This document shows positions 3,133 to 7,318 of a stretch of 64,000 nucleotides of DNA, piece after piece. This DNA comes from Micromonospora peucetia. Its GTDB lineage: Bacteria > Actinomycetota > Actinomycetes > Mycobacteriales > Micromonosporaceae. Positions within the stretch are counted from its first letter, which is position 1. Every line of letters begins with the position of its first letter. Made by a program: the position numbers and the translations under genes. The stretch covers positions 4,030,001 through 4,094,000 of the forward strand of contig NZ_FMIC01000002.1 of NCBI RefSeq assembly GCF_900091625.1. The letters run 5' to 3'. The notes under the pieces were generated by a model. The model was not told the DNA's origin. It was given only the letters and a program-made list of their open reading frames with translations, and did no database searches.

Positions 3133-3175
3133 CCACCGAGGTGTAAGGAAGAGGCCCTTCCTTACACCTCGGTGG
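3133..3175. terminator. Perfect 19-bp stem-loop after the SGNH hydrolase
   Basis: Positions 3133-3151 and 3157-3175 are exact reverse complements (19 bp) around a 5-nt loop AGGCC. It lies 16 nt after the hydrolase stop and has no T-run. It can act as a terminator, but the AAGGAAG/CTTCCTT core is of the kind that recurs as a dispersed palindrome in Micromonospora-type genomes (from memory), so it may also be a REP-like element. Confidence 0.7.
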
Positions 3176-3291: not shown

Positions 3292-5943
3292 GTGAGCAGG
3301 CTCGCGTCGGCGTACGGGCAGGCGGTCGCGGCGCACCGGGCGGCCCGGACACACCTCGACACCGCCCGTCGGGCGTTGGCCGGGCAGCTGCCCCAGGCCG
3401 GCCCGGTCGGCACGGGCGAGCTGGTCACCCGGCTCGCGGCCCTCGGCGGCGCGCTCGCCACCCCGACCCCCGGGGCCACCCCCGTGGCGGTCGCGCCCGT
3501 TCCGGTCCGGGTCGGTGAGGCGTCCACTCCCGACGGCGGCTTTCCTGTCCTCGTACCGCTGGGTGGCGGCCACCATCTCGCCGTCGACGCGGACGCCCGC
3601 GACCCCAGGGTGGCCGGTTTGCTGCGGGCGCTCGTGCTGCGGCTGCTCGCCACCGCCCCGGCCGGCGGCGTCCGGGTGGCCGGGATCGACACCGCCGCGC
3701 TCGGCGCCACCTTCGGGCCGTTGCGCCCGCTGGTCGACGCCGGCGTGCTCGACCCGCCGGCCACCGGGGAGGCCGAGGTGGCGGAGGTGCTCGACGCCGC
3801 CGAGCGGCACGCCCGCACCGCCCGGCACACCGGCCGCCCCGACCAGGAGTTGCTGCTGGTCGTCGCCGCGTCGGCGCCGCCGCCTCGGGAGGCGGCCCGG
3901 CTCGCCGCGCTCACCCACGCCGGGCCGGCCGCCGCCGTCTGCGTCCTGGCCGCCGGCTGGCAGACCGCCGCGCCGGCGACGCCGGCACCGCAGCTCGGCG
4001 CCACCACCATGATCCGGCTGACCGAGCGGTACGCCCACATCGGAGACCCGCACGGTGCCCCGTTCAGCCACGACGGCACCGGTCTGGCTGCCCCCGTGCT
4101 GCTCGATGGTGACCCGCCGGCCGCGTCGGTGGCCGCCCTCGCCGCGCATCTCGGTGCCGCCGCCCGGCGCAGCGACGCGGTGGGCTTCGCCGAGCTGCTG
4201 CCCGAGCGGCGGTGGGTCGAGTCGGCGGGCAACGGGCTGCGCACCGTGGTCGGCCGGTCCGGCCGCGACCGGGTCACCGTCGCCTTCGACGACGCCACCC
4301 CGCACTGGCTCGTAGGCGGGCGCACCGGCGCCGGCAAGACCGTCTTCCTGCTCGACGTCCTCTACGGGCTGGCCGCCCGCTACTCGCCGGCCGAGCTCCA
4401 GCTCTACCTGCTCGACTTCAAGGAGGGGGTGAGCTTCACCGAGTTCGTCCCCACTCCACGCGACCCGTCCTGGCTGCCGCACGCGCGGGCGGTCGGCATC
4501 GAGTCCGACCGGGAGTACGGCGTCGCCGTGCTGCGCGAGCTGCGCCGCGAGCTGTCCCGGCGGGCCACCACGCTCAAGCGGCACGGCGTCACCAAGCTCG
4601 CCGACCTGCCCCGCGACACCCCGGTGCCCAGGATCGTGGCGGTGATCGACGAGTTCCACGTGCTCCTCGCCGGCAACGACGCGCTGGCCCGCGAGTCGGT
4701 CGACCTGCTGGAGGAGCTGGCCCGAAAGGGCCGCTCGTACGGCGTACACCTGGTCCTGGCCAGCCAGAGCATGACCGGCGTCGAGGCGCTCTACGGCCGG
4801 GCCGAGGCGATCTTCGGCCAGTTCGCACTGCGGGTGGCGCTGCCCGGTGGAGGCGGGGTGCTCGACCCGCTGAACGAGGCCGCCCAGACCCTGCCGGTCG
4901 GCTCGGCCGTGCTCAACACGGCAGCCGGGGCGGTCGGCGCCGACACCGTCGTCCGTTTCCCCGACGCGCACGCCGCCGCCGGGGAGTTGGCCGGGCTGCG
5001 CCACGAGCTGTGGCAGGCCCGACCGGCGGGCGCGCGCTCCCCGTCGGTCTTCAAGGGCTACGAGGCCGCCCATGTCGAGGACGACCCGACCTTTGCCGGG
5101 CTGCGTCCGGGCGGGCGTCGCCCGCTGGCCCTGGTCGGGCGGACGGTCGACGTCGAGGGCACCTCCGCGCTGTTCATGATGGACGTGACTCCCGGCCGGC
5201 ACCTCGCCGTGGTCGGCACCTCGGTCACCGGCGCGGAGGTGCTGCGCGCGGCGACGCTGAGCCTCGCCCGGCAGCACGCCCCGGGCGACGCCCGGTTCCT
5301 GCTAGCCCCGCTGGTCACCGCCGCCGAGCCCGCCGCCGCCGACACCGCCGCCACCCTGGTCGCCGCCGGCCACCCGGTCGACCGTCTCGACGCGGCCGAC
5401 CTTCGCCGGCACGTCGGCGCCCTCGCCGCCGGGTCGTCCGTCCCCGCCGGGTCGCCTGGCGTCGCCGGGTTGCCTGGCGTCGCCGGGTTGTCCGTCCCCG
5501 CTGTATCGCCTGGTGTTGCCACGGCTTCCGTCCCGGCCGGGTCGGCCGGTGCCGCCGAGAGCCGTACCTATCTCGTCGTCTTCGGGATGGACGCCGCCAG
5601 CGGCGTGCTCGCCGCCGCCGACCCCGACACGTTCCGCTCCGGTCACGACGACCTGCGGACCCTGCTGCGACAGGGGCCCGGGCAGGGGGTGCACCTGCTC
5701 GGCTGGTGGCGCGGGCTGCGCCGGCTCGCCGACGACCTCGGCGGCGCCCACAACCGCGACGACGTCGCCTGCCTGGTCGCGTTGAACGTGCCCGGCGCCG
5801 AGCTCGGCCTGCACCTCGGCGTGCACGACCTCGCATACGCGCCCCGGCCCGACCGGGCGCTCCTGATCGACCGGCACGACCAACGCATCCGGCTCATCGT
5901 GCCGTTCGCCCGCGACGGGCACGGCCCGGACGGGGAGGACTGA
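3292..5943 (+). CDS. FtsK/SpoIIIE-type (EccC-like) tandem ATPase with degenerate second domain
   Basis: The product is 883 residues from a GTG at 3292; an upstream ATG at 3172 lies inside the preceding hairpin and is unlikely. Residues about 1-60 are Ala/Arg-rich and probably coiled coil. The first ATPase domain has Walker A GGRTGAGKT near residue 341, a family LLDFKEG motif, Walker B IVAVIDEFH near 448, and sensor LASQS. A second, FtsK-like region begins near residue 620, but its P-loop position reads VVGTSVTGAEV (near 640), without GK[ST], and the Walker B equivalent is YLVVFGMDAA (near 760). A low-complexity Pro/Val/Gly linker interrupts it near residues 715-755. No membrane segment is seen. 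Tandem domains with one active site recall type VII secretion EccC, but no ESX genes are present, so the role (DNA or protein pump) is unknown. The membrane protein at 5948 follows after 4 nt. Confidence 0.8.
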   Translation: MSRLASAYGQAVAAHRAARTHLDTARRALAGQLPQAGPVGTGELVTRLAALGGALATPTPGATPVAVAPVPVRVGEASTPDGGFPVLVPLGGGHHLAVDADARDPRVAGLLRALVLRLLATAPAGGVRVAGIDTAALGATFGPLRPLVDAGVLDPPATGEAEVAEVLDAAERHARTARHTGRPDQELLLVVAASAPPPREAARLAALTHAGPAAAVCVLAAGWQTAAPATPAPQLGATTMIRLTERYAHIGDPHGAPFSHDGTGLAAPVLLDGDPPAASVAALAAHLGAAARRSDAVGFAELLPERRWVESAGNGLRTVVGRSGRDRVTVAFDDATPHWLVGGRTGAGKTVFLLDVLYGLAARYSPAELQLYLLDFKEGVSFTEFVPTPRDPSWLPHARAVGIESDREYGVAVLRELRRELSRRATTLKRHGVTKLADLPRDTPVPRIVAVIDEFHVLLAGNDALARESVDLLEELARKGRSYGVHLVLASQSMTGVEALYGRAEAIFGQFALRVALPGGGGVLDPLNEAAQTLPVGSAVLNTAAGAVGADTVVRFPDAHAAAGELAGLRHELWQARPAGARSPSVFKGYEAAHVEDDPTFAGLRPGGRRPLALVGRTVDVEGTSALFMMDVTPGRHLAVVGTSVTGAEVLRAATLSLARQHAPGDARFLLAPLVTAAEPAAADTAATLVAAGHPVDRLDAADLRRHVGALAAGSSVPAGSPGVAGLPGVAGLSVPAVSPGVATASVPAGSAGAAESRTYLVVFGMDAASGVLAAADPDTFRSGHDDLRTLLRQGPGQGVHLLGWWRGLRRLADDLGGAHNRDDVACLVALNVPGAELGLHLGVHDLAYAPRPDRALLIDRHDQRIRLIVPFARDGHGPDGED

Positions 5944-5947
5944 GGCG

Positions 5948-6979
5948 GTGTCGACCTTCGACGAGTACGCGGCGCTGGCCCGGCAACTCGCCGAGCGGCG
6001 GCGGGCCGGCGAGCGGGGTGCCGCCGCAGACGCCGAGCGCCGACGCAACCTGCACGCCACGGCGGACTATCTCCAGCACCGGCTGACCGCCCAGGGGCAG
6101 CGCCTCGACCAGCTCGGCCAGGCCATCGGCATCCCGGCGTCCAGCGTGCCCACCGGCCCCGCGCCGCACAGCAACGCGTCGCCCGCTACTGCGCCCACCG
6201 GCCCCGCGCCGCACAGCAACGCGTCGCCCGCTACTGCGCCCACCGGCCCCGCGCCGCACAGCAACGCGTCGCCCGCTACTGCGCCCACCGGCGCTGGGCC
6301 ACACGGCAACGCGTCGCTCGCGACTGCGACTGCCGGGCCCGGCGCCGGGTCGTCGGCCGCGTCGGGCGGTGAGGGTGGCTCCGTGGGTGCCCCGTTTGCC
6401 GGCGCCGGGTCGGGGGAGGGGGAGTCCGCCGGCGCAGCCGGCGTGCCGGGGCGGCCGGGTGTCGGGGCGTATCCCCAGGTCGGGGCGGGTGAGACGAGGC
6501 TGGCGCTGCCGACGGCGGTGAGCCCGGCGGCGGGCGGGGTGCCGGCCCCGCGTCCGGCGGAGGCCGACCCGACCGTCGAGCTGGAGCTGGTCCGACGCTA
6601 CGCCGACGAGTCCGACCGGCACGGGCAGCAGACCGAGTTGCTCGCCCAACGGCCGCCGCTGCTGCCGGACTGGTCGCCGGTGGCCCGTGCGGTCGCCGTC
6701 TACGCGGGCTGCGCGGCGGTGGGCGCGACACTAATGATGATCATGGTGCTCGCGTCCGGTGTCGGCCTGGTCGACGGCTTCACCCTGGGTGCGTGGATCT
6801 GTGCCGGCCTGCCCGCGCTCTCCTTCTTCGCCGGCTACCTGGTGCTCGGCCGTTGGGGGCGACCGGCCATGGTCGCCGGCACCCCGCCCCGCTACGTGCA
6901 CTTCGGCTTCCTGATCTGCTTCGCGGCCGTGCCGGTCGCCTACCTGGCCTTCCTGCTGCTGTTCCGCGTCCTGCGCTGA
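5948..6979 (+). CDS. Repeat-containing membrane protein, partner of the FtsK-like ATPase
   Basis: The product is 343 residues from a GTG 4 nt after the FtsK-like gene, so the two are almost certainly cotranscribed. Residues 1-65 are charged and helical (many Arg/Glu/Ala). Residues about 67-126 are four copies of a 15-residue unit (TGPAPHSNASPATAP type). A Gly/Ala/Pro-rich stretch follows to about 210, then a short acidic helix. The last 100 residues hold about three hydrophobic segments (near 243-263, 272-292 and 313-340), so the protein is membrane-anchored by its C-terminus. I recognise no named family. It could be the membrane platform or substrate of the ATPase; this is inference from the pairing only. 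Confidence 0.7.
   Translation: MSTFDEYAALARQLAERRRAGERGAAADAERRRNLHATADYLQHRLTAQGQRLDQLGQAIGIPASSVPTGPAPHSNASPATAPTGPAPHSNASPATAPTGPAPHSNASPATAPTGAGPHGNASLATATAGPGAGSSAASGGEGGSVGAPFAGAGSGEGESAGAAGVPGRPGVGAYPQVGAGETRLALPTAVSPAAGGVPAPRPAEADPTVELELVRRYADESDRHGQQTELLAQRPPLLPDWSPVARAVAVYAGCAAVGATLMMIMVLASGVGLVDGFTLGAWICAGLPALSFFAGYLVLGRWGRPAMVAGTPPRYVHFGFLICFAAVPVAYLAFLLLFRVLR
6146..6325 (+). repeat. 45-bp in-frame tandem repeat, four copies
   Basis: Four consecutive 45-bp units occupy 6146-6190, 6191-6235, 6236-6280 and 6281-6325. The first three are essentially identical and the fourth has diverged at several bases. The unit is a multiple of three, so it encodes a 15-residue repeat and copy number can change without frameshift. 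The near-identity of three copies indicates recent expansion. Confidence 0.95.
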
Positions 6980-7125
6980 GGGGCCGCACGCACGGGCCAG
7001 CCCTTGGCGCGTCAGGCGTCCTGCAATCTGTGCACCGTCTCGTCGTGGTGGGCAAGCCGGGTCCACGCCGCACGCTGCTCGTCGCAGGGCCCTGGCCGTC
7101 CACAACCGCGCTCGCAGGATCGGGC

Positions 7126-7180
7126 GGGTGGAACACCATGGCTGTCACCGGGGCCGGGAGACACCCATGGTGTTCCACCC
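7126..7180. repeat. Perfect 16-bp inverted repeat in the gap 6980-7318
   Basis: GGGTGGAACACCATGG (7126-7141) and its exact reverse complement (7165-7180) flank a 23-nt loop. Each arm ends in CCATGG, itself a palindrome. The element lies between the convergent ends of the membrane protein (+) and the F420-type reductase (-), where a bidirectional terminator would be useful, but it has no T-run. The rest of 6980-7318 shows nothing I can name. Confidence 0.7.
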
Positions 7181-7318
7181 GTGGTCGCCGCCTGGGTCGT
7201 CGTGCGGGACGGGCGGGGGTGTGGATGTTCGATATGCCGCCTTTGAGGGGCTGCGCGACGTGGGTGGCGAGGCCGTGCCCGAAGGTCGTCCCTCGACCGC
7301 TCACCACGCCGGTAGCGG

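Follow-up and report, generated by a model that had tools for sequence, protein, structure and literature searches.

The two adjoining genes described here, P0001 and P0002, lie in a 64,000-nucleotide stretch of the Micromonospora peucetia genome, the whole of which we call the window. We read them as a split motor related to EccC, in which P0001 would be the ATPase and P0002 its membrane anchor, and which would handle small helical-hairpin proteins. This is a composite claim, to which we give a probability of roughly 0.45. Its computed basis is the domain order of P0001, its overall affinity to EccC, its dead sites and their antiquity, the pairing of the two genes, the linkage of relatives to hairpin genes, and the tail motif of those hairpins. 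A preliminary description of the same DNA had suggested an uncharacterised DNA or protein translocation unit; both genes are real and lie where it had placed them, and its interpretation is partly supported, translocation itself being something that we infer from sequence.

A three-domain relative of EccC

Over its full length, P0001 comes out nearer to EccC than to FtsK, as had been proposed. Searching NCBIfam returns EccCa first (E 7.5e-24, against 1.8e-4 for FtsK), at scores below the equivalog cut-offs throughout: EccCa 84.4 bits against 509, EccCb 64.2 against 346.6, EssC 61.7 against 778 and FtsK 19.3 against 1566. A profile of the P0001 family, compared with the PDB, matches the EccC structure 4nh0 at E 2.2e-39 in a single segment spanning the first two nucleotide-binding domains (NBD0 and NBD1), while the best FtsK entry reaches 5.5e-13. 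Profile-profile alignment joins P0001 residues 6-850 to EccC residues 105-1032 (99.4%, E 4.4e-21), and Foldseek, given the P0001 model, returns 4nh0 first (E 1.2e-29; best FtsK 4.4e-13). EccC is thus the closest solved structure across the full length, and we consider it very probable that the full-length affinity of P0001 is to EccC rather than to FtsK. At the level of the superfamily, the top Pfam domain is FtsK_SpoIIIE (PF01580; 86.4 bits against a gathering cut-off of 24), and by its sequence P0001 is a member of the FtsK/SpoIIIE superfamily with one intact P-loop domain. Its parts are as follows.

3292..5943, forward strand: P0001, predicted soluble EccC-like ATPase, 883 residues, GTG start
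3292..3468, forward: N-terminal helices, residues 1-59 (helices 2-30 and 41-55 in the model)
3469..4182, forward: NBD0, degenerate domain without P-loop, residues about 60-297, assigned by its position to the place of the EccC DUF domain
4183..5076, forward: NBD1, intact ATPase domain, residues about 298-595, nearest to EccC ATPase1 (hhalign 99.6%, E 4e-24)
4315..4341, forward: Walker A, GGRTGAGKT, residues 342-350
4648..4653, forward: Walker B, DE (D453, E454)
5077..5940, forward: NBD2, FtsK-fold domain without P-loop, residues about 596-883
5209..5241, forward: dead P-loop position, VVGTSVTGAEV, residues 640-650
5443-5553, forward: repetitive, low-confidence insert in NBD2, residues about 718-754

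A purine-rich site precedes the GTG start. The AlphaFold model, built from an alignment of 62 sequences (mean predicted local distance difference test score 87.8), has N-terminal helices followed by three alpha/beta domains with the boundaries listed above. Only the middle domain carries Walker A and B, so that the order is dead, active, dead. The tandem of an active and then a dead domain that had been described stands, as does the FtsK fold of the latter, a domain retained without its P-loop; what had been overlooked is the dead N-terminal NBD0, and there are three domains, not two. Both GK[ST] and DE are kept in NBD1 in 62/62 aligned sequences, while GK[ST] occurs in 0/62 in the columns examined of the outer domains. 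Across 10 pairwise comparisons, the ratio of nonsynonymous to synonymous substitution rates ranges from 0.19 to 0.61 for NBD2, taken over its structured parts, and from 0.19 to 0.38 for NBD1. Given these ratios and the missing GK[ST], NBD2 is an old and maintained feature; judged from the alignment, the dead sites are an ancestral trait of the family.

A simple predictor of transmembrane (TM) segments finds none in P0001; the same predictor is positive for 39 of 42 EccC proteins. At least one borderline window (1.71-1.92) occurs in 19 of 62 relatives, always within the stretch that corresponds to P0001 residues 77-761, and in none of the 62 does such a window fall in the N-terminal helices.

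The partner gene and the helical neighbours

P0002 begins 4 bp after P0001, at a GTG start again preceded by a purine-rich site. It reads as an N-terminal helical region, a linker rich in Pro, Ala and Gly, and three C-terminal TM segments; both the three helices and a repeat region had been anticipated. A Pfam scan of P0002 gave no match.

5948..6979, forward strand: P0002, partner protein, 343 residues
6148..6347, forward: 45-bp tandem repeat, 4.4 copies, in the linker
6716..6964, forward: TM segments, residues 257-275, 282-300 and 321-339
3133..3175, no strand: perfect inverted repeat, 19-nt arms and 5-nt loop, between a GDSL gene and P0001; likely the terminator of the upstream gene
7125..7181, no strand: 28-nt inverted repeat, 89% complementary, after P0002; likely the terminator of the P0001-P0002 unit

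The flanking inverted repeats suggest that P0001 and P0002 form one two-gene transcription unit.

The expected conservation of this pairing is borne out. We compared 61 genomes, 37 of the host genus (its own genome included) and 24 outside it. A P0002 homologue is present in 37/37 of the former and, by a single-sequence search, in 0/24 of the latter; a closely related ATPase (at least 55% identity over most of its length) is present in at least 33 of the 37, among the matches listed. Three draft assemblies (G010, G014, G023) have no such ATPase among those matches. In the one-contig genome G012, the match to the group A ATPase covers no more than the first ~324 residues and contains a TGA (C1:6396285-6397229), while the partner gene is still present. 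The window genes flanking the pair recur next to it in 10 of 13 genus contexts that have the ATPase, the exceptions being L053-L055.

More widely, a downstream gene on the same strand and less than 60 bp away is found at 108 of 121 loci in six groups of our choosing: group A 19/20, group B 7/13, group C 26/26, Frankia 8/12, Pseudonocardiales 42/43 and the f34 genomes 6/7. The f34 loci (for example L103:9172-11715) adjoin the 3' side of genes that we take to be trxB and trxA, names that, like gltD and pyk, were assigned partly by recognising sequences; downstream of the partner they have a 201-residue helical protein in place of a short hairpin.

Relatives of P0001 often carry one or two helical proteins of 81-90 residues, many ending in Tyr-x(2-4)-Leu. 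A helical protein of 70-100 residues without a TM segment is encoded no more than two genes away from the ATPase at 62 of 80 loci in a first set and at 41 of 81 in a second (8 loci are shared), against 10 of 212 control genes. A tblastn search recovered a hairpin at 10 of the 18 first-set loci scored as lacking one; five of the remaining eight come from short contigs, and the other three (L209, L213, L222) from group B. The tail [YFW]x(2-4)[LIVM] closes 80 of the 106 distinct small neighbours; among other proteins it does so in 24 of 1829, and among other small helical ones in 2 of 109. The 106 sort into 19 clusters, of which a few are unrelated by-catch. Comparing this tail with those of other substrates rested partly on recognising sequences.

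The arrangement differs between lineages. Pseudonocardiales commonly have two hairpin genes (86 and 81-83 residues) upstream of the ATPase, Frankia has one after the partner, and Micromonosporales group C has one together with a protein of 259-426 residues whose start resembles, by eye, the second of the Pseudonocardiales hairpins. The first-hairpin families are related by profile-profile comparison, that of Pseudonocardiales matching group C at 97.7% and Frankia at 89%. The larger group C protein, encoded between hairpin and ATPase (L048:6306-7550 and 25 further loci, such as L214:4770-5666), has an N-terminal hairpin and, after it, a helical region that is conserved and includes a WW pair found in all 17 aligned sequences; its model is of low confidence and has no clear fold match.

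Small proteins also adjoin four divergent ATPases (L094, L095, L097 and L105). For the three of these proteins that were scanned, WXG100 ranks first among Pfam families, with scores below cut-off (E 1.6e-5, 2.1e-5 and 4.3e-4). An NBD1 tree rooted on EccC groups these four ATPases with L098 as a separate clade (support 0.9), and WXG100-like neighbours are confined to it. Beside the L105 ATPase and its WXG100-like gene is a 338-residue protein (L105:4883-5899) whose residues 19-137 match a DAHL domain below the cut-off and whose C-terminal half seems to form a domain of its own. Taken together, the hairpin operons and the WXG100-like neighbours of relatives point to the handling of protein rather than DNA.

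Distribution and the other copies in the host genome

A P0001 match at E 1e-40 or better was found in 47 of 296 genomes sampled across the class. With one genome taken per species, a scan picked up at least 514 relatives, some possibly outside the P0001 family, of which 80 were kept; these come from Frankia and its kin, Saccharopolyspora, Saccharothrix, Lentzea, Amycolatopsis, Pseudonocardia, Micromonospora, Salinispora, Amorphoplanes and others. The gene set is widespread in actinobacteria and apparently undescribed: the literature searched, which covered neither most subscription-journal papers nor any bioRxiv preprint, gave no account of it, DUF6244 included.

DUF6244 (PF19757) is a protein of ~87 residues encoded near the P0002 homologue in much of the genus, within 10 kb in 26 of 37 genomes and no farther than 1 kb in 13, but not near the window pair. 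It differs from the hairpins in that the five distinct members clustered lack the Tyr-x-Leu tail.

Of the ESX genes whose absence had been remarked upon, those for EccB and WXG100 are indeed missing from the window. On contig C2, where the window occupies 4.03-4.09 Mb, the EccB matches of the genome are found at 1.54 and 6.04 Mb, none near the window, and the WXG100 matches at 1.53, 1.54, 1.68, 5.73 and 5.88 Mb.

Standard EccC genes occur elsewhere in the host genome, which also has two further P0001 paralogues, one of group C (L048, with a hairpin and the second protein) and one of group B (L047:7263-9803, about 2460262-2462802 of G000:C2). At all ten genus group B loci examined (L047, L111, L112, L115-L117, L123-L125 and L127), the Walker A Lys is replaced by Arg and the Walker B Glu by Asn, while the group B relatives from other genera (L209, L213, L222) have intact Walker residues. 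Group B is thus probably a dead EccC-like protein, judged by these residues, that is kept across the genus. Its inactivity is short of certain because the motif published for EccC ATPase3 in PMC6954902 tolerates Arg in Walker A. About 14 kb from this paralogue is a second full-length EccC of 1321 residues (L232:6345-10310, about 2442344-2446309 of G000:C2), above the NCBIfam cut-offs for EccCa and EccCb; neither of the genomic EccB matches is nearby.

Proposed mechanism, alternatives and known systems

In the mechanism that we propose, P0001 would be a soluble, reduced relative of EccC without membrane anchor or fourth NBD, consisting of stalk-like N-terminal helices, a DUF-type NBD0, a catalytic ATPase1-type NBD1 and a non-catalytic ATPase2-type NBD2. 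P0002 would supply the anchor in trans, its N-terminal helical region pairing with the helices of the ATPase. NBD1 would hydrolyse ATP as an oligomer, probably a hexamer, and NBD0 and NBD2 would be structural or ligand-binding, serving as scaffold and docking site. The ligand in the wider family may be a small helical-hairpin protein or pair of them, often with the Tyr-x(2-4)-Leu tail, which might dock on a dead domain and then be exported or assembled. The model for such docking is EsxB, whose C-terminal tail binds EccC ATPase3 (PMC6954902); the ATP site of ATPase3 is highly conserved in EccC, and the parallel is loose because NBD2 has no such site. No hairpin gene adjoins P0001 and P0002, and in the host strain the ligand would therefore be encoded elsewhere, for example by the DUF6244 gene at C2:2322080, or have been lost.

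Several results weigh against this reading. NBD0 by itself matches the EccC DUF domain at only 0.3% by profile-profile comparison, sliding the full-length alignment along by one domain still gives 97.9% (E 4.4e-13), and for a single domain the residue-level aligner gives FtsK motor domains a higher Z than EccC (28.9 against 25.4). The hairpin counts are not phylogenetically independent, the tail motif appears in 9 of 19 clusters, and the hairpin families match WXG100 profiles at no more than 4.2% (coiled-coil controls at most 1.8%). DUF6244 is weakly tied to the hairpins (57% with group C, at most 13.5% with others). In the window, tblastn with all 106 small proteins finds no hairpin gene at E 1e-3, and there is no DUF6244, the single match in the genome being 1.7 Mb away; the unit here is therefore reduced to two genes. 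By tblastn, the group B sister copy has no hairpin gene at 13 of 13 loci. Finally, the Pseudonocardiales partner has no TM segment (42/42) and no channel-like gene was recognised beside it, so export is hard to picture there.

This last result leads to the first of three alternatives, itself rather unlikely: a cytoplasmic or peripheral assembly machine derived from EccC, in which the ATPase and a coiled-coil partner scaffold remodel or polymerise hairpins without export, TM helices being taken as present in some lineages only. The Pseudonocardiales partners fit it well, given that their partner region nevertheless aligns with that of group C (85.8%, E 5e-6), as does the lack of an EccB match near the window. 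Two things count against it, namely the 2-4 TM segments predicted in 66 of 66 partner loci examined in the five other groups, and the hairpin C-terminal tails, which recall the EsxB secretion signal.

An unlikely second alternative is a DNA-handling pump of FtsK/SpoIIIE or HerA type, which its partner would recruit to membrane or septum, with a layout that may resemble that of the SffA-SmeA pair of Streptomyces. The top Pfam domain and the highest Z of NBD1 (265 residues aligned) are both of FtsK type, HerA and TcpA structures match as well, and a membrane partner suits recruitment. Over the full length, however, EccC is favoured by at least 16 orders of magnitude in E-value, the Pfam scan contains no FtsK gamma domain at E up to 1, and the neighbours of relatives suit protein handling. 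The third, an anti-phage defence ATPase of SspH, MADS8 or HerA type, is very improbable: PADLOC does match SspH (E 1.2e-18) and mad8 (E 6e-16), but only in the ATPase core (residues 314-497 of 883) and less well than the EccC models do, coverage of P0001 by plasmid or phage records is 64% at best, with none reaching 80%, and neighbours kept in 10 of 13 genus contexts are not expected of defence islands.

Returning to the split motor, we tentatively suggest a broader claim, that the family is an undescribed EccC-derived actinobacterial system, made up of a soluble motor of dead-active-dead layout, an anchor of coiled-coil type and a hairpin substrate, or two of them, without detectable WXG100 kinship. 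If so, it would amount to a type VII-like machine in minimal form, present in several orders and working without EccB and other membrane parts of the type VII secretion system T7SSa; a single Micromonospora-type genome can carry as many as three paralogues of it, the group B one apparently without catalytic activity. A soluble three-domain relative with one ATPase1-type site and a candidate separate anchor would reveal which parts of EccC are dispensable, and a system of two or three components would let the recognition of hairpin proteins by EccC motors be probed. It would also give a testable role to DUF6244 and to many genes named only 'FtsK/SpoIIIE domain-containing protein'.

Among known systems, the FtsK/SpoIIIE DNA translocases match the full length of P0001 much more weakly than EccC does. 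With EccC/EssC (T7SSa-T7SSj), P0001 shares, in the best full-length alignments, N-terminal helices and DUF-type, ATPase1-type and ATPase2-type domains in that order, and many of its relatives likewise adjoin small helical proteins. The EccC/EssC ATPases surveyed in PMC11217815 are membrane-bound with four NTPase domains; P0001 differs in lacking TM helices, the N-terminal ones included, in having three NBDs in its model (the best profile alignment stops in EccC ATPase2) and a single P-loop, and in having no EccB nearby. In EccCa1/EccCb1 of ESX-1, EccC is split into separate polypeptides between ATPase1 and ATPase2, as PMC6954902 describes, whereas in P0001/P0002 it is the anchor that would stand apart from the ATPase, with the fourth NBD absent; EccCa1/EccCb1 nonetheless offers, to that extent, a precedent for a split EccC.

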